Positions 37,318 to 46,877 of a stretch of DNA of 64,000 nucleotides are shown here, piece after piece. Position numbers and translations under genes: made by a program. How positions within the stretch are numbered: position 1 is the stretch's first letter; each line of letters begins with the position of its first letter. The notes beneath the pieces were generated by a model, which was given only the letters and a program-made list of their open reading frames with translations, was not told the origin of the DNA and did no database searches. Source of the stretch: Rathayibacter iranicus NCPPB 2253 = VKM Ac-1602 (lineage in GTDB: Bacteria > Actinomycetota > Actinomycetes > Actinomycetales > Microbacteriaceae); contig NZ_QGDV01000002.1 in the NCBI RefSeq assembly GCF_003149025.1, positions 1-64,000 of the forward strand, in the 5' to 3' direction.

Positions 37318-37521
37318 ATGGCTGTTCCCAAGAGGAAGAAGTCCCGCGCGAACACCCACGCCCGCCGTTCGCAGTGGAAGGCGGAGGTTCCGCCCCTGGT
37401 CAAGACCATCGAGAACGGCAAGGTCGTCTACAGCCTTCCCCACCGCGCCAAGGTCGTCGAGGACTCCGCGGGCACCGCGCTGTTCCTCGAGTACAAGGGC
37501 CGCAAGGTCGCCGACGTCTGA
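37318..37521 (+). CDS. rpmF: 50S ribosomal protein L32
   Basis: A 67-residue basic protein of the large ribosomal subunit. It starts [20 protein letters not shown], the family signature, at ATG 37318 with an AGAAGAGAG purine tract upstream. The zinc-binding cysteines of some L32 proteins are absent; this is the zinc-free form usual in actinobacteria. It lies 19 bases behind the DUF177 gene and 26 before rnc. Confidence 0.95.
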
Positions 37522-37547
37522 TCCGCTCCCGTGCCGTCCCGCGGTCC

Positions 37548-38270
37548 ATGGTGAACCAGACCTCTGCACGACCCTCCAGTGACGACCGGTCGCGTCTGGA
37601 GGCCACGCTCGGCGTGAGCCTCGATGGTGAACTCTTCGAGCTTGCCCTGACGCACCGGTCGTTCGCGTTCGAGCACGGCGGCGTCCCGCACAACGAGCGT
37701 CTCGAGTTCCTCGGCGACTCGATCCTGGGGCAGGCGGTCACCGTGATGCTCTACACCGAGTACCCCGCTCTCAACGAGGGTGATTTGGCGAAGCGACGCG
37801 CGAGTCTGGTCTCGACCGTCGCGCTGGCCGAGATCGCCCGTGGTATCGGGCTCGGCGAGTTCCTTCGACTCGGCCGCGGCGAGGAGCTGACCGGCGGTCG
37901 CAACAAGGCGTCGATCCTCGCCGATACCGTTGAGGCGATCATCGGCGCCGTGTACCTCGGCACCGGCCCGGATGCTGCGCGCGATCTGGTGCTCCGGCTC
38001 ATCGCGCCGCTGCGGGCGGATCCGCTGCGCTTCGGCGTCTCGATGGACCCGAAGACGAGCCTGCAGGAGGCAGCGGCCGAGCGCGGGGCGCCCGCTCCCC
38101 GCTACGACATCGCGGCCACGGGGCCCGACCACGACAAGGTGTTCGTGGCGACGGTGGTCGTCGGCGAGCTGGTCACCGCTCGCGGTGAGGGCACGAGCAA
38201 GAAGGCGGCCGAGATGGCCGCTGCGCTGGACGCGTGGACGCGGCTGGCGACTCCTGCGGCGCCGGAGTAG
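37548..38270 (+). CDS. rnc: Ribonuclease III
   Basis: A 240-residue double-strand RNA endonuclease. The catalytic signature NERLEFLGDSILG is at residue 48 on, and the second acidic pair is in LADTVEAIIGAVYL (near 126). The C-terminal dsRNA-binding domain (about 165-235) ends with GEGTSKKAAEMAAALDAW. ATG 37548 or the next codon GTG may serve as start. Its stop lies two bases before the mutM start, so the genes are coupled. Confidence 0.95.
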   Translation: MVNQTSARPSSDDRSRLEATLGVSLDGELFELALTHRSFAFEHGGVPHNERLEFLGDSILGQAVTVMLYTEYPALNEGDLAKRRASLVSTVALAEIARGIGLGEFLRLGRGEELTGGRNKASILADTVEAIIGAVYLGTGPDAARDLVLRLIAPLRADPLRFGVSMDPKTSLQEAAAERGAPAPRYDIAATGPDHDKVFVATVVVGELVTARGEGTSKKAAEMAAALDAWTRLATPAAPE

Positions 38271-38272
38271 CC

Positions 38273-39187
38273 GTGCCCGAGCTTCCCGAGGTTGAGGTGG
38301 TGCGGGCGGGGCTCGCGCCCGCGGTCACCGGATCGCTGGTGACCGCAGTGGAGATCGCCGACGGGCGCTCGCTGAGACGCCATGTGCATCCGCACGGAAC
38401 CTTCGAGCGCCTGTTAGTTGGGCGTCGACTCGAGGGCGCCGTCCGGCGCGGCAAGTTCCTTTGGCTGCCCGCGGGACGCGACGAGGCCCTGCTAGTGCAC
38501 CTGGGCATGAGCGGCCAGGTGTTGCTGCGCACGGCCGACGTCCCGTTGCCTCGCCTCGCGCGCATTCGGATCGGCATCGAGCATCCCGAGCACGGCGAGC
38601 TGGCGCTGCACTTCGTGGACCAGCGCATCTTCGGCTCGATGGCGGTCGATGCACTCGTGCCGACGCCCGACGGAGCGCCCGGCGGTTACGCGGGGGAGGA
38701 GGCGCGTGGCGGCGACTGGCTCCGCGCGGTGCCCTCTCAGGTGGCGCACATCGCCCGCGATCCGCTCGACCCCGCCTTCGAGCTGGGCGGCGTTATCGCT
38801 GCGCTCGCGCGGCGAAAGAGCGGGATCAAGCGCGCGTTGCTCGATCAGACGCTGGTGAGCGGTATCGGCAACATCTATGCGGACGAGTCGCTGTGGGCGG
38901 CGGAACTGCATCCGGAGCGGCCAAGTTCGGCGCTGGGTGAGGCGCGCATCCGCCGGCTCTTCGCGGAGGTGCGCTCGGTGCTGGAGCGGGCGCTGGCCGA
39001 GGGTGGCACGAGCTTCGATGCGCAGTACGTGAATGTGAACGGGGCCTCGGGCTACTTCTCGCACAGCCTGCACGCTTATGGGCAGACGGGAAAGCCGTGC
39101 TCCCGCTGCGGTGAGCTGATCGTGCGGGTGCCGTTCATGAACCGCTCCTCGCACCTCTGCCCGCACTGCCAGCGGGTGCCGCACTGA
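38273..39187 (+). CDS. mutM: Formamidopyrimidine-DNA glycosylase
   Basis: A 304-residue DNA repair enzyme that removes 8-oxoguanine and opened purines. It starts at GTG 38273 with the catalytic PELPEVEVVRAGL. The Lys for the beta-elimination is in GAVRRGKFLWL (near 56), the helix-two-turn-helix is in the middle and the zinc finger CSRCGELIVRVPFMNRSSH plus CPHC closes the protein. It is intact, but its 3' end is copied three more times within the next 6 kb (40480, 40794, 45166). Its final codons (VPH) differ from those of the last copy (VPG), so the 3' end may have come in with the island. Confidence 0.96.
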   Translation: MPELPEVEVVRAGLAPAVTGSLVTAVEIADGRSLRRHVHPHGTFERLLVGRRLEGAVRRGKFLWLPAGRDEALLVHLGMSGQVLLRTADVPLPRLARIRIGIEHPEHGELALHFVDQRIFGSMAVDALVPTPDGAPGGYAGEEARGGDWLRAVPSQVAHIARDPLDPAFELGGVIAALARRKSGIKRALLDQTLVSGIGNIYADESLWAAELHPERPSSALGEARIRRLFAEVRSVLERALAEGGTSFDAQYVNVNGASGYFSHSLHAYGQTGKPCSRCGELIVRVPFMNRSSHLCPHCQRVPH

Positions 39188-39308
39188 CGCTCAAGCTTGA
39201 AGAAAACTCAGGCCGCTGTGGGTCTTTCATCGCGATCGATCGGTATGGTCCCGCCCCAGTGACCGCTCCGGACTTGTCGGAGCCCGATGGCAGGACAGGA
39301 AGTAGCGC

Positions 39309-40436
39309 GTGGTCTACGAAGATTTCAGGAAAAAATTCCGGGATGCGCGTAATCAATACAACATCATGGCACTTATTGGAAACGGGTTCGATATCCAGGC
39401 CCTGTCGGGCATCGGTTCCAAGGTCGACACTCGATACGAATCCTTTTACCACTTCCTGAAGTACCGCCATTTCGACCCGACCAGTCGTATCGTCGGGCGC
39501 ATGGAGTCATTGCGTGGCAAGGCTGGGAACTGGAGCGACGTCGAGAATGCGATCGAACAGCTCTGCCTGGTCGACCAAGTGAGCAGTTCGGCTGTGGCTC
39601 GGGAGGTGAAGAGCATCCAGCGGGAATTTGCTCTCTTCCTCAATCAGGTGGCCACGCCGGAAGTGCTCTCACTGCTCGGCGAGAAGGCTGTGGCGCATAA
39701 TCTGACGATGACTAGCTTCACGGAGTTCCTGGGTGACATCGACGATGCCGATGAGTATCGCAAGATGCGGCTGCCTTCTCGCCTGGACATCGGTGATGTC
39801 TTCAACTTCAAGTTCATCAATTTCAACTACACGACACTGCTCGACGATTTCGTCTTCCTGGATCAGGAACAGTTTGACCCGCATCCGTACCAGGTCTCCG
39901 ATCGGAACATTGATTTTCACCCAAATCCCCGCGGCCACGCACGCGCCCGGGAGCGGAAAGATTTCCGCATGGTCTCCTACCTCGTCTCTGACGTTGTCCA
40001 TCCGCATGGGCTCCAGTACACCCCGCGGTCACTCCTGTTCGGCATTGACGAGGCGGACGGCAGTGCACGGCGCCTTTCGAAGCCGTACTGGGCGCAGAAT
40101 AGGGTGAAATATGCTGATCTCTTCACTGACACCGACCTGTTCATCGTGTTCGGCAGTTCACTCGGTCTCACCGACCGCTGGTGGTGGCGAGCCATTGTGG
40201 AGGGACTTCGGGGCAATGATGAATCCGAGATGATTCTGTATTGGCGCCGAGAGTCCAAGGGAGCGGAAATGGCGGCGCAGGAACTCCGAGAGTACTTCGC
40301 CCACTCCGCAGGGTTTAACGCTGATCCGGACGTGCTGAACATTCTCGTTGAGAAGGTGCGGGTTGTACTCTACGACGACTCGACAGAGCGTGCCTGGCTG
40401 AATACGAATGCCACCGCGCCGCTGAGCTGGGTGTAA
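39309..40436 (+). CDS. AbiH-family abortive infection protein
   Basis: A 375-residue protein of the AbiH family, first known from lactococcal phage resistance. The N-terminal ALIGNGFDIQAL and YESFYHFLK match the NGFD...Y..F signature; FKFINFNYTTLLDDF (near 175) and VVHPHGLQY (near 235) are further landmarks, as is FIVFGSSLGLTDRWW. GTG 39309 is the start. The gene is richer in A and T than its neighbours, with more AT-ending codons, a sign of transfer. It lies 121 bases behind mutM and is followed by the first mutM fragment. The mechanism of AbiH is not known. Confidence 0.88.
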   Translation: MVYEDFRKKFRDARNQYNIMALIGNGFDIQALSGIGSKVDTRYESFYHFLKYRHFDPTSRIVGRMESLRGKAGNWSDVENAIEQLCLVDQVSSSAVAREVKSIQREFALFLNQVATPEVLSLLGEKAVAHNLTMTSFTEFLGDIDDADEYRKMRLPSRLDIGDVFNFKFINFNYTTLLDDFVFLDQEQFDPHPYQVSDRNIDFHPNPRGHARARERKDFRMVSYLVSDVVHPHGLQYTPRSLLFGIDEADGSARRLSKPYWAQNRVKYADLFTDTDLFIVFGSSLGLTDRWWWRAIVEGLRGNDESEMILYWRRESKGAEMAAQELREYFAHSAGFNADPDVLNILVEKVRVVLYDDSTERAWLNTNATAPLSWV

Positions 40437-40461
40437 GTAATCGACTCAGCTCTGATCGTCG

Positions 40462-40479
40462 GCGTAGCGAGAGTGCACG
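40462..40479. repeat. 18-base copy of the DUF1275 gene 3' end
   Basis: GCGTAGCGAGAGTGCACG occurs here and at 46198-46215, where it encodes the VHSRYA near the C-terminus of the DUF1275 protein. Here it abuts the first base of the mutM fragment at 40480. It is the junction expected from tandem duplication of a mutM-to-DUF1275 segment. Confidence 0.6.
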
Positions 40480-40724
40480 GAGGAGGCGCGTGGCGGCGAC
40501 TGGCTCCGGGCGGTGCCCGCTTAGGTGGCGCATATCGCCCGCGACTCTTCGCGGAGGCGCGGTCGGTGCTCGAGCGCGCGCTGGCCGAGGGCGGCACGAG
40601 TTTCGATGCGCGGTACGTGAACATGAACGGGGCGTCGGGTTACTTCTCTCGGAGCCTCAATGCCTATGGGCTTGCCGGGTATCCGTGCAAGCGCTGCGGA
40701 ATTCCCATCGTACGAGAGAAGTTC
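40480..40724 (+). pseudogene. mutM fragment 1 (internally deleted)
   Basis: 40480-40544 aligns without gaps to mutM 38696-38760, and 40545-40724 aligns to 38957-39136. The 196 bases between are missing, which shifts the frame. A CAG codon of mutM has become TAG. The second part encodes TSFDARYVNMNGASGYFSRS and CKRCGIPIVREKF, then leaves the mutM text just inside the zinc finger. Identity to the native gene is visibly lower in the second part, so it probably derives from another strain's mutM. Confidence 0.8.
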
Positions 40725-40793
40725 CACTCGCTGTACGTCAACGTGTAGAAACATTCAGGTGATGTCCGAGCTGCGCGTCTACTGCCGTGAAAC

Positions 40794-41147
40794 GTGGGTG
40801 CTCCGACGTCGAGGATCTCGGCGGTGGTCGATGCTGCACGAGACGTCCTTGCCGCTGCGCTCGCTCAAGGCAGGACATCGTTCGATTATCTCTATGTCGA
40901 CGTGGCGGGCAGCAGCGGGTACTTTTCCCGAAGCTTGCGCGTCTACGGGCTTGCTGGGTATCCCTGCCTGCGGTGCGGCACGACCATCATCCGGGAGAAG
41001 TTCATGAACCGCTCGAGCCGCTTCTGCCCGGACTGCCAACGAAAGCGGCAATTGAGCGCCTTGGGGCGTCGCCGCATTGAGAGCATTCCCGCGATAGGAC
41101 GGCTGGCGGACGTCATCCTCGCCGTCAATGTCCGTGGCCCATCGTAG
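40794..41147 (+). pseudogene. mutM fragment 2 (divergent C-terminal domain, zinc finger intact)
   Basis: The 117-codon frame from GTG 40794 reads [40 protein letters not shown] and [27 protein letters not shown] in two pieces. This is the end of the helix-two-turn-helix and the full zinc finger of a formamidopyrimidine glycosylase that is quite unlike the native one. All four zinc-binding cysteines are kept, and the frame runs about 30 codons past the family's usual end. It lacks the catalytic N-terminus. It is either a second scar or a small zinc-finger protein still being made. Confidence 0.65.
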
Positions 41148-41185
41148 GCTGGTCGAGCAGAGCGAAGTCTTCAGAAGGGTGCGCG

Positions 41186-43102
41186 ATGAAGATGACATCG
41201 TTTCGAGTTTGCCTGTACAAGAACGTATTGGACTCGACGGAAGTGTCGGTGGAGTCGGACGTAACGACGCTGGTCGGCATGAACGAGTCGGGCAAGTCGA
41301 CGATGCTCGACGCCCTCTACCGTTTGAACCCTGTCTACGACGACGCGTTCGTCGAGCGGGACGACTACCCGCGCTGGCGGTGGAAGCGCGACGGCCGGAA
41401 GGAGGACCTCTCGGTCGTCACGCCGATCGAGGCGACCTTCGTCCTGGACGAGGACGACGCCCAGGCCTTATGTGACGTGCTGGGCGAAGCTGTGGTCGCA
41501 CAGGAGGCCGTGACGATCGGCCGGCGCTATAACGGCAACTACTGCGTGGGGGTGTCGGTCGATGAGCCCCGATTCCTGAAGAACGTTCTCGCGGGCCACC
41601 CCGATGCCGACACGCTGCTGGAAACGCACACCACCGTCGCATCGCTCAAGGAGGCGCTCGCGCCCAAGGCTACCCCGGCCGCCGTCGACCCGACGAACTC
41701 CGCCGGAGAGGTCCCTGATGAGAACGCCGCCGCCGACGCCGAGGCGCTGCAGCGGATCGCGTCCCGGATCGGAGATGCCGAGGACCTGTCCGCAATCGCC
41801 CGTAGGACCGTTCGATCGAGGATGCCGCAGTTCTTCCGCTTCGCGTCCTATCAGAACCTCGAGGGGCGCGTGGACGTCTCCACTCTGCGCACCACGGAGG
41901 AAGAGCAACCCGGTGCATCGTCGAAGCAGACGGCCCGCGCGCTGCTCCGGCTGGCCGACACCGACATCGATTCGGTAACTGACGCGGAGTTCGAGTCGCG
42001 CACCGCGGAGCTCGAGGCGGTGTCCAGCGACCTCTCCCGTGAGATGTCCGAGTACTGGAGCACGAACCCGGAGCTTCGGATCAAGGTGGAGATCGAGCCG
42101 GAGACGGTCACCCTCCCGAACGGACAGTCCAGCGTCGTGCGCTACCTCAACTTCCAGGTCGAGGATCGCAAGCACGACTTCACGAACAACTTCTCGCTCC
42201 GGTCCTCCGGCTACCAGTGGTTCTTCTCCTTCCTCGCGGCGTTCAGCGAGTTCGAGGATCTCGACGACGTGGTGATCCTGCTCGACGAGCCAGCGCTGAC
42301 GCTCCACGCGAAGGCGCAGCGCGACTTCCTGCGCTTCATTAACAAGCGCCTCGCTCCCGTCGGTCAGGTGATCTACACGACCCACTCGCCGTTCATGGTC
42401 GAGCGGATCGAGCGCGTCCGCGTCGTGGAGGACCGGGGCGACGACATCGGCTCGGTCACTTCGTCGGATGCCTTGGAGGTCGGGGAGGACAGCGCGTTCC
42501 CGCTCCAGGCCGCCCTCGGCTACGACCTGTCGCAGAACCTGTTTATCGGCGAGCGGAACCTGCTCGTCGAGGGCCCCTCGGACCTGGCGTACTTGGACGT
42601 AGTCGGCCGTCACCTCCGCGATCTGGGGCGCGAAGGGCTCGACGAACGCTGGCGGATCCTCCCGGCCGGAGGTGCGTCGAACGTGCCCGCCTTCGTCTCC
42701 CTGCTGGGACAGAAGGTGTCGGTGACGGTGCTGCTGGACTCCGGCACCGAGGGCGGCGGGAAGGTCGAGGCCGCGATCAAGGCGAACAAGATCGTCGGCA
42801 AGCGAGTCGTCTTCGTCGGGTCGGTCCTCGAGCAGAAGCACAGCGACATCGAGGACCTGTTCAAGGCCGGCGACTATCTCGGGCTCTACAACGAGGCGTT
42901 CGGGAAGAAGCACAAGGTCGGCGACCTGCCGGACCATCCTGATCGGCTGCTGCTCCGGTTGGAGGCGCTGGACGGGAGGTTCGACCACTGGCGACCTGCG
43001 GAGATTCTGCTCCGCGACCCGTCCAGAGTCGAGAAGCTGTCGCAGACGACACTGGGGAACTTCGAGGCACTGGCTCAGCGAATCAACGCGACGCATGTCT
43101 GA
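41186..43102 (+). CDS. OLD-family ATPase with TOPRIM nuclease domain
   Basis: A 638-residue protein. The ATPase has Walker A VGMNESGKSTML (near 31), the ABC-type signature region FSLRSSGYQWFFSFLAAF (near 335) and Walker B DVVILLDEPALTLH (near 363), with the switch His in YTTHSPFMVERI. A C-terminal TOPRIM domain follows: LLVEGPSDLAYLDVV (Glu, near 457) and VLLDSGTEGGGK (near 515), where DSG replaces the usual DxD. This is the plan of OLD and Gabija GajA nucleases. Start at ATG 41186. It overlaps the next gene by eight bases. Phage defence is the likely role, cutting or nicking DNA when triggered. Confidence 0.85.
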   Translation: MKMTSFRVCLYKNVLDSTEVSVESDVTTLVGMNESGKSTMLDALYRLNPVYDDAFVERDDYPRWRWKRDGRKEDLSVVTPIEATFVLDEDDAQALCDVLGEAVVAQEAVTIGRRYNGNYCVGVSVDEPRFLKNVLAGHPDADTLLETHTTVASLKEALAPKATPAAVDPTNSAGEVPDENAAADAEALQRIASRIGDAEDLSAIARRTVRSRMPQFFRFASYQNLEGRVDVSTLRTTEEEQPGASSKQTARALLRLADTDIDSVTDAEFESRTAELEAVSSDLSREMSEYWSTNPELRIKVEIEPETVTLPNGQSSVVRYLNFQVEDRKHDFTNNFSLRSSGYQWFFSFLAAFSEFEDLDDVVILLDEPALTLHAKAQRDFLRFINKRLAPVGQVIYTTHSPFMVERIERVRVVEDRGDDIGSVTSSDALEVGEDSAFPLQAALGYDLSQNLFIGERNLLVEGPSDLAYLDVVGRHLRDLGREGLDERWRILPAGGASNVPAFVSLLGQKVSVTVLLDSGTEGGGKVEAAIKANKIVGKRVVFVGSVLEQKHSDIEDLFKAGDYLGLYNEAFGKKHKVGDLPDHPDRLLLRLEALDGRFDHWRPAEILLRDPSRVEKLSQTTLGNFEALAQRINATHV

Positions 43103-44132
43103 GCCCGCGGCTCCGGCGTCGAGTGCAAACCGAAGTGGTCCCGATCAAGAAGAAGCCGTGGAACGACGGATCGACTTCTGGCGCGATCGGCGCATGCTGT
43201 GCGGCGGATGCGGCCACGAATTCGTCGTCGATCTAGACTGGATCGACCGGTGGGAGCAGAGCGGAGAGAAGTGCGCCAGCTGCGGCCTGACCTGCGAGCA
43301 CGAGGACGCGCCCCCGGTCACGGTCGATCCCAATGACCCCGCGCTCGACGACGCCGAGGTCGCGCGGTTCGCTTGGTACCACACGAGCACCCAGCCGGAC
43401 TGGCCAACGAAGAGCTTCGACCCGGCGGCCGTCCTCACACTCGAGACCCGCATGCGGATGGGCGGCGACCGCCACGTCGCCGCATGGGCCGAACGACAAC
43501 GTTCCAAGGCCCTGCACGTCGGCACTTACGAGGCCGCAATCCACAACATGCTGAGGCGGATGCATGACCAAGCCGATCACAGCAGCCAGTTCTACCTCTA
43601 CCGTGTTCATCTGAAGGCGACGGTCGTCGTGCGGGAGGGATGGCTCATCGATCCGAGCAACTTCGTTGGCGACGTCGCCCTTGATGATGTCTGCCCTCCG
43701 TGCGTCGACGTCGCTCGCTACCTGAACTATCACGAGGACCCCGGAGGGCTTTCCCTGGCGCTGGGACGAGACGCGCTCGCCAGCGTCCAGCAGGTTGCCG
43801 TTCCGATCGCCGATGCGTGGGACGCCGATTGGGTGCGCGACGCTGTCGCGGCCTTCGAAAACGCATCGGACGTGCCGACCCAGGCGAACGGCGGGCTGGG
43901 GCGGCTCATGCGTCCGTCGTCGCCGAGGGACGCGCTGGCTCGCGCACTCGGCAAGGCGCTGACCGACCGGCTGCCGGTCAACCTGCGGGATCAGTTCATC
44001 TCGGCCGAGAGGTACACCGAAAGCGACCATCCAGAGCGGTGGGCCCGTCGGGAGAGCGCTCTGTTCCAGCTGATTGTGGAGCCGGGTCGCCTGCTGTCAG
44101 CCCTCGACCGACAAGAGCGTCGGCGGGTGTGA
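43095..44132 (+). CDS. Zinc-ribbon protein partnered with OLD nuclease, possible ART-like fold
   Basis: A 345-residue protein whose ATG lies inside the end of the OLD gene (ATGTCTGA overlap). Residues 36-70 form a zinc ribbon, CGGCGHEFVV ... CASCG. Then come RFAWYHTSTQPDWP (near 92) and KALHVGTYEAAIHNMLRRM (near 138), with FYLYRVHL and LNYHEDPGGLSLAL later. The pair Y-H-T and L-H-x-G-T with a later Glu is reminiscent of ADP-ribosyltransferase-like folds, a weak inference. It is not a UvrD helicase, so the pair is not Gabija; no reverse transcriptase or PARIS-type partner is seen either. I do not recognise the family. Confidence 0.6.
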   Translation: MSEPAAPASSANRSGPDQEEAVERRIDFWRDRRMLCGGCGHEFVVDLDWIDRWEQSGEKCASCGLTCEHEDAPPVTVDPNDPALDDAEVARFAWYHTSTQPDWPTKSFDPAAVLTLETRMRMGGDRHVAAWAERQRSKALHVGTYEAAIHNMLRRMHDQADHSSQFYLYRVHLKATVVVREGWLIDPSNFVGDVALDDVCPPCVDVARYLNYHEDPGGLSLALGRDALASVQQVAVPIADAWDADWVRDAVAAFENASDVPTQANGGLGRLMRPSSPRDALARALGKALTDRLPVNLRDQFISAERYTESDHPERWARRESALFQLIVEPGRLLSALDRQERRRV

Positions 44133-44714
44133 AGGCATCTTCAGTCCCCGAAGTTGACGAGCATCTGACCCCAATTCTCATGACAACGACGCGGTCAAGG
44201 CATCAATGCCGATGGGGACTGGGGCAATCCTCCGATACGACACCTACAAGTTTGGGACCGGCAAGGGATTCGTCTGGATGACCATCAAGTTGCAGCACAG
44301 CATCCTGGCAACCGCCAGTAGCCGTTACCGGCGGTGGAGGCAAAAATCAACTCAGGCTCCTGGGGCACGACACCACTGATGCAGACTGCTCTCCCGGGCT
44401 CGCGCTTCCGATCCCAGAAGAAGCTGGGCTCGACTTGGCCACAGACGCTGACTAGAGCAGCCCGATGGCGACTGCCATCGCCAGGAACATGACGAGCTGG
44501 TAGCCCGTGTTGATGAGCATCGGAGGCTTCAGTTCGAAGGCGTTGTGCTGAAGCAGCCTGCTGGCCGCGACGCAGAGCCGATTGCCGAAGCTGTAATCAA
44601 GCAGCCTTCGGCGGTGCATTTGGTGGACCGTGGCGCCGGATGCGATCTCACAGTTCTGGATGCCCGCTTGTGCCGTCCTAAGTAGTCCTAACCTCGCGGG
44701 AGGAGAATCGAGAC
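44133..44714. other. Degenerate interval in the island
   Basis: This 582-base gap has only broken text. From ATG 44206 about 60 codons open as MPMGTGAILRYDTYKFGTGK and then lose sense. Another short stretch reads HDTTDADCSPGLALPIPEEA before a TAG at 44455-44457. A minus-strand frame of 102 codons (44452-44760) ends in a hydrophobic stretch but has no recognisable content. I see remnants of former genes rather than a gene. Confidence 0.35.
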
Positions 44715-45005
44715 ATGTCCGCCACTGATCCCAAGCAACCGGAGTATCCACCCTGGCCATCTCTCCACGTCAGTTTGCAGCATCCGAAAAACCTGGCTCT
44801 CTACGCCCGACGGCAGGCCAAGGTCCCGGACGGCATCCGAGTCATGGTCCTGTAGACAGACGACTATCGCGAGGCTGTCGTGACGGTCGCCGTGGAATGG
44901 ATGGACGGTGGCCGCGTCGAGCTGGATCTCAACGTTGGCGACAACCCCGATCGGCTCGCCGCGCGCATCGAGGCCGCAGCGCGGACCCTCATGGCGCAGC
45001 AGTGA
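44715..45005 (+). pseudogene. Small hypothetical gene with in-frame TAG
   Basis: GGGAGGAG lies nine bases before ATG 44715. The frame reads MSATDPKQPEYPPWPSLHVS, meets TAG at 44853-44855 after 46 codons and goes on without a frameshift as VTVAVEWMDGGRVELDLNVG and IEAAARTLMAQQ to TGA at 45003. The second part has no start of its own that would explain it. An intact product of 96 residues would be a small acidic protein. It overlaps the following small gene by GTGA, so the pair were coupled. No family recognised. Confidence 0.55.
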
Positions 45006-45121
45006 TTGGGAAACCGATCTGCTGCGAGGACTCGGCTGAGCTCCGTCTCCGTCTCGCCGACGTTCGGCAACTCGATCACGGCCTCGTTCCCGACAAGAAC
45101 CTGACGCAGGCGAGCGATTAA
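45002..45121 (+). CDS. Small hypothetical protein (39 residues)
   Basis: GTG 45002 overlaps the stop of the preceding small gene as GTGA. The product, VIGKPICCEDSAELRLRLAD then VRQLDHGLVPDKNLTQASD, is soluble and charged and has an adjacent Cys pair. It is supported by the overlap and clean codon text only. It ends 44 bases before the last mutM fragment. It might be an accessory part of the OLD cassette or unrelated cargo. Confidence 0.4.
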   Translation: MIGKPICCEDSAELRLRLADVRQLDHGLVPDKNLTQASD

Positions 45122-45165
45122 TGCGCGAGCGTCGAAGTCAGTCTGTCGGTTAACGTGTGAGGTGG

Positions 45166-45303
45166 GGCTACTTTTCGCACAGCCTGCACGCCTATGGGCA
45201 GACGGGGAAGCCGTGCTCCCGCTGCGGTGAGCTGATCGTGCGGGTGCCGTTCATGAACCGCTCCTCGCACCTCTGCCCGCACTGCCAGCGGGTGCCCGGC
45301 TGA
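45166..45303 (+). pseudogene. mutM fragment 3 (138 bases, about 96% identical to native 3' end)
   Basis: GGCTACTTTTCGCAC onwards matches 39050-39187 base for base except six positions, three of them in the last codons (VPG here, VPH in mutM). It encodes the last helix and complete zinc finger and ends with TGA at 45301. Left of 45166 the match ends abruptly. It is best read as the original end of the chromosomal mutM, cut off when the island entered. Confidence 0.85.
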
Positions 45304-45326
45304 GGCCCGGGTGATCGCGACCGGCG

Positions 45327-45668
45327 CTACTTCGTCTCGCTCGGGTGGCTCGTGTGTACCTGCTCGAGGTAAACGGTCTGTCCGTCGACGTAGAACCAAA
45401 TCCGTGCCGTTCCCTTTGCCGTCGGCTTGTGTTGCCAGCGCTCGTAGGTCGTGTCGCCCCGCACGATGATGCCGAGCGTGTCTTTCAGCGGATAGTTCGT
45501 TTCAGTCTTCGCGAGTGGTGTCGCCGTCAGGAAATCCCAGGTGTCGGCCATCGGGTTCCGGATGGTCGCAATAAGGTCGCGCCAGCCCTTCTGCGCTCCG
45601 GTGGTCGCGAAGCGGATCTCGTACTCCGACTTCTTCCGCGGACGAGCGACCGAGGTCTCCTTTGCCAC
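45327..45668 (-). CDS. RelE/ParE-type toxin
   Basis: A 113-residue basic protein, start GTG 45668. Its core, YEIRFATTGAQKGWRDLIAT, then WDFLTATPLAKTETNYPLKD and ARIWFYVDGQTVYLEQVHT, follows the strand order of the RelE/YoeB fold, with the conserved C-terminal basic-aromatic strand. Relatives cut messenger RNA at the ribosome. It follows its antitoxin gene with two bases between stop and start, the usual order for Phd-type pairs. It lies just outside the island, behind mutM fragment 3. Confidence 0.75.
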   Translation of the reverse strand: MAKETSVARPRKKSEYEIRFATTGAQKGWRDLIATIRNPMADTWDFLTATPLAKTETNYPLKDTLGIIVRGDTTYERWQHKPTAKGTARIWFYVDGQTVYLEQVHTSHPSETK

Positions 45669-45670
45669 GG

Positions 45671-46141
45671 TCAGGGGCGCTCGACAGGATCTGACGCGCG
45701 CAGGTCGTCCAGCCACGTCACCTGATCTTCGCCGAGTCCAGCAGCGATCACGATGGCCGTTTCGCGCCAAGAGGTGAGTTCGGCGATGGCCAGGTGCGGC
45801 TGACCGGTGGAGAAGGACGCTCGTGCGGCGTTGACGAGAGCGCGAGCACAGCGTGCTCGACCTTCTGGGGACAGAGCGAGCATCCACGGGAAGGGGGCTG
45901 TGAGACGGTCCTCGAGCGGTCCTTCGTCGTCTAGCGCCGCCGCGAGAAGCTGCGCGGCGAGTTCGAGCAGGCGGGCGCGGGCGTCTGATTCGCGCTGCGA
46001 CATCAGCACGAGGGCGTCGCCGTCCCGACGAGTCACCGTGACGGGATGATTGTCGGCTTCGGCGAATACCTTGGCAGAGTGCTTGCTCAGATCGGAGGAT
46101 CGCCGGATGTGCAGCGCGGGACCGGTCGCAATGACGTTCAT
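45671..46141 (-). CDS. Phd/YefM-type antitoxin with C-terminal extension
   Basis: A 156-residue protein, start ATG 46141. Residues 12-60 resemble the Phd/YefM DNA-binding fold: SSDLSKHSAKVFAEADNHPV then TVTRRDGDALVLMS. Ordinary members end near residue 85; this one has 70 more residues, including PFPWMLALSPEGRARCARAL and ELTSWRETAIVIAAGL. It should neutralise the toxin directly downstream and repress the pair. The extension may give toxin specificity or act as a separate domain. Confidence 0.78.
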   Translation of the reverse strand: MNVIATGPALHIRRSSDLSKHSAKVFAEADNHPVTVTRRDGDALVLMSQRESDARARLLELAAQLLAAALDDEGPLEDRLTAPFPWMLALSPEGRARCARALVNAARASFSTGQPHLAIAELTSWRETAIVIAAGLGEDQVTWLDDLRASDPVERP

Positions 46142-46187
46142 GCGGAACAGGTTATTCGGAACGTGTTCGGAAGTACAGGTTCCAGCG

Positions 46188-46877
46188 TCAGGTGGGCGCG
46201 TAGCGAGAGTGCACGACGAGTTCGCCGAGGAGCGTCGCGACGAGCGTGATGACGGCGGCGATCGCGAGGCCGAGCCAGAGGCCGACGAGGAGGGCGAGCG
46301 CACCGACTCCGGCACCCGCGGCGATGAGGACGATGGCGCCTGCTCGACGGATCCAGGGCTGACCGGAGCCGCCCGCGAGACGCGAGTCGGCGGCGAGGCC
46401 GGTGATCGTCGAGGTAACGACGACGGTGGTGACGTCCTTCACGGCGAGATGGCGCGCGGTCGCGGCCTGGAGGCCCATCGCTCCGCCGAGGATCCCGGTC
46501 ACGACGAGTGCCAGGGGCTCGGGGTGCGCGGGCGCGAGGGCGAGGAGGATCGCCAGCGCGGCCAGGAGCAGCCCGACGACGGCGAAGAGCCAGGTGGAGC
46601 GGGAAGTCCAGCCCTTCTTCACCGGTCGCAGGACGCGTCCGCCGAGCACTGCTCCGACGATGAATGCTCCAAGCGCGATCAGGGGACCGACGACCGGCAA
46701 GTCCGCGACTCCCGAGAGCGCCATGCCCAGGATGACGACATTGCCGGTCATGTTGCCGGCGAAGACGCGGTCGAGGCCGAGGTAGCCGACAGCGTCGATG
46801 ATGCCGGTCGAGAACGTAAGGGCGAGCATCAGGCCGAGGGTCGCGTCCTCGGTGCGGGTGCGCAGGCGTCGAAGCAC
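46188..46877 (-). CDS. DUF1275 (YoaK-like) membrane protein
   Basis: A 229-residue protein with about six membrane helices. LALTFSTGIIDAVGYLGLDR then VFAGNMTGNVVILGMAL at the N-terminus is the family signature. GILGGAMGLQAATARHLAVK lies in the middle and STITGLAADS follows. The function of the family is unknown; transport has been suggested. Start at GTG 46877. An 18-base piece of its 3' end is repeated inside the mutM island (40462-40479). Confidence 0.85.
   Translation of the reverse strand: MLRRLRTRTEDATLGLMLALTFSTGIIDAVGYLGLDRVFAGNMTGNVVILGMALSGVADLPVVGPLIALGAFIVGAVLGGRVLRPVKKGWTSRSTWLFAVVGLLLAALAILLALAPAHPEPLALVVTGILGGAMGLQAATARHLAVKDVTTVVVTSTITGLAADSRLAGGSGQPWIRRAGAIVLIAAGAGVGALALLVGLWLGLAIAAVITLVATLLGELVVHSRYAPT

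Follow-up and report, generated by a model that had tools for sequence, protein, structure and literature searches.

What left one intact mutM gene followed by three further mutM-derived pieces, with defence genes lying between them and no integrase in sight? The question is raised by the first 64,000 nt of contig NZ_QGDV01000002.1 of Rathayibacter iranicus (this whole stretch is referred to as the window), in which an island of accessory genes lies between mutM and a DUF1275 gene. The insertion hotspot is real. On the basis of sequence comparison, we consider it likely that a clade of large serine recombinases of the Actinomycetes uses the 3' part of mutM as its chromosomal attachment site (attB), and that elements accumulate there in tandem. 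The window itself has a mixed history: there is one clean junction, an old re-completed gene that was later shortened and a foreign fragment, and no enzyme remains. The mutM-related features of the window are:

38273..39187, + strand: intact mutM (Pfam Fapy glycosylase, H2TH and zinc-finger matches)
39047-39058, + strand: proposed attB core, the SGYF codons in intact mutM
40479..40544, + strand: older mutM body fragment (mutM nt 423-488)
40542..40724, + strand: older mutM end ('t405'), its body native as far as the core and followed by a zinc-finger end that is foreign and truncated
40794..41057, + strand: foreign mutM end ('t41')
45148..45165, + strand: possible element half of the junction (attP-left-like), with a weak 18-mer score
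45166..45303, + strand: displaced native-like mutM tail ('t45'), a clean junction

DNA self-comparison of the window showed that the mutM end at 39049-39190 repeats at 45165-45306 (95% over 142 nt) and at 40916-41057 (65%), whilst mutM 38954-39136 repeats at 40542-40724 (78% over 183 nt) and mutM 38695-38760 at 40479-40544 (94% over 66 nt). All three mutM-derived pieces are positioned 3' of the intact gene and on the same strand. A DNA search of the whole genome with mutM gave at least five matches, all at the island, among the 40 of 108 candidates scored. A preliminary description of this DNA had reported that the last 138 bases of mutM recur at 45166-45303 with six mismatches, and the alignment of 39050-39187 with this tail agrees (six differences in 138 bases). 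The 'deleted copy' described at 40480-40724 does lack about 190 bases, but it is not a simple tail, as native mutM body is joined to a foreign truncated end across 40479-40724. Similarly, the zinc-finger end described at 40794-41055 is divergent, and indeed foreign, but it runs from 40794 to 41057 and is longer than a tail.

The mechanism that we propose is a crossover at the SGYF codons, which read about GGSTACTTC in the DNA and immediately precede those of the zinc finger. The incoming element would carry its own last ~130 bp of mutM; mutM would be re-completed with this foreign end, and the native end would be displaced to the far side of the element. A re-completed mutM would be usable again and elements would stack, the newest beside mutM and the native tail outermost. 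Position 45166 of the window would then be the outer junction of such an insertion, and the OLD-like gene pair and AbiH gene that lie between the mutM copies would be remnants or passengers of such elements, with no integrase remaining. Recombination activity, the order of events in the window and the loss of an integrase are steps that we infer from sequence.

The position of the breakpoints supports a crossover at the core. The start of homology was located by likelihood change point for 25 ends from 20 sites; the ends of genomes G015 and G069 could not be placed, and so were left out of the breakpoint test. Counted from the GYF codon, 15 of the 25 placed ends start between -10 and +5 nt, in a stretch of 16 nt at the SGYF codons. 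Under uniform breakpoints over 301 nt the binomial P is 1.5e-13, a value that is indicative only, given that the stretch was picked after viewing the values and some sites are related. The DNA on the element side is also similar between families: with 32 nt of element side scored against a matrix from the other junctions and a mononucleotide-shuffle null, 13 of 20 junctions reach p<=0.003. The junctions of G012, G031, G102 and G170 do not reach this level, and that of G263 has p 0.014.

An integrase crossover at the core predicts that the intact gene ends in the tail of the element and that the native tail lies outermost. To score nativeness in six genomes, the 120 nt that follow the core were compared without gaps with those of sister genomes and the identities averaged (sister genomes: G012, 13; G176, 2; G614, 1; G537, 1; window, 13; G161, 4). 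The outermost end is more native than the end of the intact gene in four of the six: G012 (intact end 63.5%, outermost 79.0%, body before the core 77.4%), G176 (65.4%, 76.2% and 70.8%, respectively), G614 (63.3%, 77.5% and 70.0%) and G537 (61.7%, 70.0% and 60.8%). Within the window, t405 is foreign after the core (mean 52.2% to genus relatives), and the 90 nt before its core are native body (mean 78.8/90 to 13 genus relatives). The t41 end is likewise foreign after the core (mean 68.3% to genus relatives); its nearest sequences among those compared are the mutM genes of other families (97/120 with G602, 93/120 with G403). Because native body sequence stands before its core, t405 looks like a re-completed gene from an earlier insertion and not a displaced tail. 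It may have been cut down later as a newer mutM and AbiH arrived, perhaps via homologous recombination.

A candidate enzyme was found at the displaced end in two genomes. G095, which belongs to the same family as the window genome, carries an 11-kb element with HsdR, HsdM, HsdS, a relaxase (PF03432, E 2e-11) and a 491-aa large serine recombinase (P0002), the start codon of which is 45 nt from the displaced GYF codon. P0002 carries the Resolvase and Recombinase Pfam domains, and its nearest solved relatives are serine recombinases such as the TP901-1 integrase (E 1.1e-10). In G537, a member of another family, a recombinase gene 66-68% identical to P0002 starts 44 nt from the displaced GYF codon. 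Both genes are open, and the DNA on the element side is conserved between these families. At 42 loci of other homologous recombinases, the 1 kb that precedes the gene gave no match to the mutM end better than E 0.004, although three of these loci show under 50 bases in that interval. The G537 element extends over two contigs (L237 1519-3184 and L236), with the intact mutM and its foreign-looking end on one and the integrase and a native-like end on the other; judged by eye, restriction-like genes are present in this island as well, together with a small gene resembling a resolvase.

These two genomes alter the earlier view of a hotspot without its own recombinase. For the window that view stands, as the island gave no match to tyrosine recombinases (PF00589), to serine recombinases (PF00239) or to P0002; in two relatives, however, a large serine recombinase sits at the far junction. 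An integrase-bearing element with a defined att core covering the whole island had been named as one observation that would speak against the idea, and G095 and G537 come close to it, with the recombinase at the same site but not in the window genome. Inside the islands of the eight tail-bearing genomes searched, neither a tyrosine nor a serine recombinase family was found; the remaining sites were checked with the G095 protein, plus Pfam on some genes. A tRNA-type tyrosine-integrase island finds no support (no tRNA in the window island, no PF00589 inside the islands of the eight genomes), and nor does an integron (no IntI-type tyrosine recombinase inside the same islands). The nearest tyrosine recombinase gene in the eight genomes, which we take to be XerC from its size and place, is about 22-85 kb from mutM and was not considered to be the enzyme of the island.

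The site was compared between 14 relatives in the genus, which was assigned as Rathayibacter from named relatives. In ten of these the site is empty and free of mutM fragments, the mutM stop and DUF1275 being no more than about 200 bp apart. The other four hold other cargo at the site (G006, 1.7 kb; G011, 2.9 kb; G014, 0.9 kb; G012, 11.8 kb). The contrast of empty and filled sites that had been anticipated is thus present, but tails accompany the cargo in only one of the four: G012 has two displaced mutM ends, together with AbiL-like genes, a PDC-S06-type ATPase and an RmrA-type gene, whilst no displaced end was found behind mutM in G006, G011 or G014.

For a broader survey, a 60-aa MutM end was used as query at E<=1e-7 against 398 genomes of the family and 394 of the class, 18 being in both lists. 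Two or more matches were obtained in 16/398 family genomes and 12/394 class genomes. Second matches in open frames of 276-423 aa were excluded as paralogue-like (G301, G521, G633, G742), as was a full-length second gene in G231 and an apparent case in G200 that is a contig overlap. At least 14 of the 398 family genomes have displaced ends, comprising 13 after exclusions and G069, which sits below the survey threshold and came from a separate locus comparison. The class sample adds seven genomes outside the family (G403, G527, G537, G543, G580, G602 and G614), G000 and G176 having already been counted in the family. Together with the environmental contig MT835574.1 there are 22 sites in total, and displaced mutM ends with other cargo in other genera and families bear out the proposal that this one site gains cargo repeatedly. 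MT835574.1, an unannotated contig of faecal origin that carries a displaced end as well as mutM and an Abi_2 gene, was the best-matching phage record; it is the one examined further of the 24 phage and 43 plasmid records matched by the tail peptide. Against viral contigs, the tail peptide found 18 stretches that fit the pattern, none of them a relative. In the 80 best named genome contigs no displaced end could be recognised over as much as 10 kb downstream of mutM, and the state is accordingly uncommon. Weak matches in the named contigs (down to E 1.6e-5, 26-70% identical, many of them upstream or antisense) were judged to be chance.

The G200 case shows that draft assembly can mimic the repeats, and the window genome is itself in 49 contigs. 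Nevertheless, the same anatomy is seen in the one-contig genomes G031 and G102, and two of the three window copies differ strongly from the gene, so that an artefact of assembly seems very improbable.

Several observations weigh against mutM as the attachment site of a serine recombinase. The ten ends outside the 16-nt stretch start at -109 to -13, +30 and +40. Two of the three window copies are not clean junctions, with breakpoints at -100 (t405) and -109 (t41) against -3 for t45, and the starts in G580 (-43), G543 (-55) and G161 (-41) also fall outside the stretch, and therefore other routes exist. Even the t45 junction has a weak motif: its 32-mer has p 0.18, and its last 18 nt (45148..45165) have a shuffle p of 0.02, with 66 of 13990 island 18-mers scoring equally high. 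In the window the two ends are equally native (intact 86.5%, t45 87.7%, body 84.1%), and in G161 there is no difference (intact 79.2%, outermost 78.3%, body 77.9%). In gapped comparisons with one sister genome, the order is reversed in G102 (intact 83/100, displaced 76/99) and level in G015 (intact 70/100, displaced 64/89). Finally, the integrase is present at only 2 of the 22 sites, the other 20 having no match better than E 0.1, and in G537 the intact mutM and the integrase are on different contigs.

Some of these observations are what would be expected with no site-specific enzyme at all, if homologous or homology-assisted illegitimate recombination of donor DNA (mutM and its neighbours) leaves duplicate ends. 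The copies at 40479-40724 and 40794-41057 reach 100-109 nt upstream of the core, and G161, G543 and G580 have longer ends. In addition, one HNH protein family is found 3' of mutM in three genera, 69-78% identical (L076 1134-2132, oriented, in G011; L089; L203), and no displaced mutM end was found beside the copy in G011. We nonetheless consider enzyme-free recombination improbable, given the 15 breakpoints inside 16 nt, the conserved element-side half and the serine recombinase at the junction in two families. Defence hotspots that are filled by homologous exchange hold varied defence cargo between conserved flanks, but such exchange would not be expected to duplicate the end of a target gene with breakpoints gathered in one place.

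The role of a serine recombinase at mutM could also be read more broadly, in a variant whose probability overlaps with that of the attB reading. Recombinase-free cassettes would be regular passengers, small defence units with mutM attachment ends that are moved in trans by the integrase of a resident or incoming element, in the manner of cis-mobilizable elements. One- or two-gene units between mutM ends in which no recombinase was found (G031, G102 and the OLD-like pair of the window) are consistent with such cassettes, as is the occurrence of the HNH family at the site in three genera. However, among the 4 of 11 candidates scored there was no relative of P0002 in the window genome at E<=1e-30 or 1e-60, the two serine recombinases of this genome that were checked are resolvase-like, and simple decay accounts for the same anatomy. 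We therefore regard mobilization in trans as possible but doubtful. The window genome contigs C37 and C30 (L288, L289) hold resolvase-like serine recombinases that adjoin paralogues starting MDARVLGDRFAPIT.

Tandem accretion at a serine-recombinase site is a kind of system that is already known. In the sections available of the work on Dehalococcoides ssrA (PMC3146451), the target gene and its displaced 3' ends delimit tandem islands, a serine recombinase lies at the edge of some islands whilst 15 islands lack the module, and the repeat is preceded by a motif that has no match in the gene. The mutM site is similar in its tandem islands, displaced 3' ends, serine recombinase at the edge of some, recombinase-less members and upstream motif. 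It differs in that the ssrA target is a transfer-messenger RNA (tmRNA) gene with a 20-bp repeat, reductive-dehalogenase cargo and two serine recombinases per module (same sections), whereas here a protein gene is the target, the end is ~130 bp long and the accessory cargo is of other kinds.

Staphylococcal cassette chromosome (SCC) and pseudo-SCC elements at rlmH, described in part in PMC3146451, offer a second likeness: serine recombinases, a conserved protein gene targeted at its 3' end, tandem islands of composite structure and recombinase-less members. SCC differs in its ccr recombinases, short repeat and phylum; the target here is mutM and not rlmH, and the window island has no serine recombinase. 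It is tempting, though at present unlikely, to see in mutM the equivalent, in actinomycetes, of the staphylococcal cassettes, with an attachment site shared across the class at which one serine-integrase clade would rebuild the zinc finger with each insertion and recombinase-less defence cassettes of one to two genes would travel in trans as regular members.

Accretion is also described for integrative and conjugative elements (ICEs), integrative and mobilizable elements (IMEs) and cis-mobilizable elements (CIMEs), where decayed elements keep attachment sites and new ones insert at the gene end (PMC5704250, in the part available). With its relaxase and integrase, the G095 element is IME-like in the terms of that part. 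The serine-recombinase IMEs described there have very short repeats and disrupt dispensable genes, whereas here mutM would be re-completed.

The novelty lies in mutM as the site, in the clade of recombinase and in how long a stretch of the gene end is replaced. We did not find mutM as an integrase or attB site in the open-licence literature, although supplementary tables, which were outside the search, may hold it. The main text, as far as available, of a survey of serine-recombinase targets (PMC10083194) contains neither mutM nor formamidopyrimidine, and mutM was not found in the available text of an actinobacterial ICE survey (PMC3218068) or of a streptococcal study (PMC4701971), the target list of which has mutT. 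With a candidate integrase, a core site and both attachment halves identified, an enzyme-less hotspot becomes testable. The proposed exchange would show a route by which defence genes can pile up at one protein gene in several families. It would replace the whole zinc-finger end of a repair gene, and mutM C-termini in genomes of this kind could therefore have a horizontal history. If active, a serine integrase whose attB is conserved among high-GC Gram-positive bacteria would be a useful genetic tool.

The cargo and flanking genes of the window are:

37374..38270, + strand: rnc (ribonuclease III) open reading frame (ORF), left flank (Pfam ribonuclease III and dsrm domains)
39309..40436, + strand: AbiH cargo gene, 375 aa (PF14253, E 1.7e-17)
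41186..43102, + strand: OLD/AriA-like AAA ATPase, 638 aa (AAA_15, E 1.7e-19)
43095..44132, + strand: partner of the ATPase, 345 aa, no known family, its start overlapping the ATPase stop
45327..45887, - strand: ORF next to the antitoxin, perhaps its toxin (no Pfam match)
45671..46315, - strand: Phd/YefM-type antitoxin ORF, past the last tail (PF02604, E 2.5e-7)
46188..46877, - strand: DUF1275 gene, right flank (PF06912, E 1.2e-34)

The AbiH gene and OLD-like pair are located between mutM copies, as first described. AbiH had no PADLOC match. The ATPase matches AriA (E 1.9e-21) and Old (E 1.7e-17) in PADLOC, and its match to an OLD-like TOPRIM domain is weak (E 0.0035, below the cut-off of that family). 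Its 345-aa partner, for which neither Pfam nor PADLOC gave a match at E 0.01, may be an undescribed effector. No relaxase was found by Pfam among the three window cargo genes, the ones scanned. The antitoxin ORF lies past the last tail, in a space that measures no more than about 200 bp in empty relatives, and the ORF at 45327..45887 resembles one in the G537 island (judged by eye, without alignment).

Some cargo genes were scanned with Pfam and PADLOC at 10 of the 22 sites, and a defence-type match was found at seven: the window, G012, G031 (AIPR/AbiU), G095 (type I restriction), G170 (Fic/SoFic), G176 (PDC-S06) and MT835574.1 (Abi_2/AbiD). In G102 the scan gave an HNH nuclease domain for which the defence matches were weak, and G033 and G069 had no defence-type match among their scanned cargo genes. 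The island had been portrayed as a defence island, and defence cargo does recur at several sites, but other functions are present too: by eye, G403 and G527 carry metal-resistance-like genes, G015 a ParDE-like pair, and G543 and G580 sugar and transport genes. The last two (L226 and L225, respectively) are small-genome actinomycetes in which an 11-kb sugar/transporter island lies between mutM and a longer second mutM end.

A small gene directly precedes the displaced end in G176 (L230 2277-2714, helix-turn-helix by Pfam) and in G602 (L229 5444-5785, oriented, by eye), the position taken by the integrase in G095, and could encode a directionality factor. G602 also has two full-length mutM-like genes in tandem (L229 279-2189, oriented), followed by cargo and a displaced end, and one of the two has an altered core in place of GYF.

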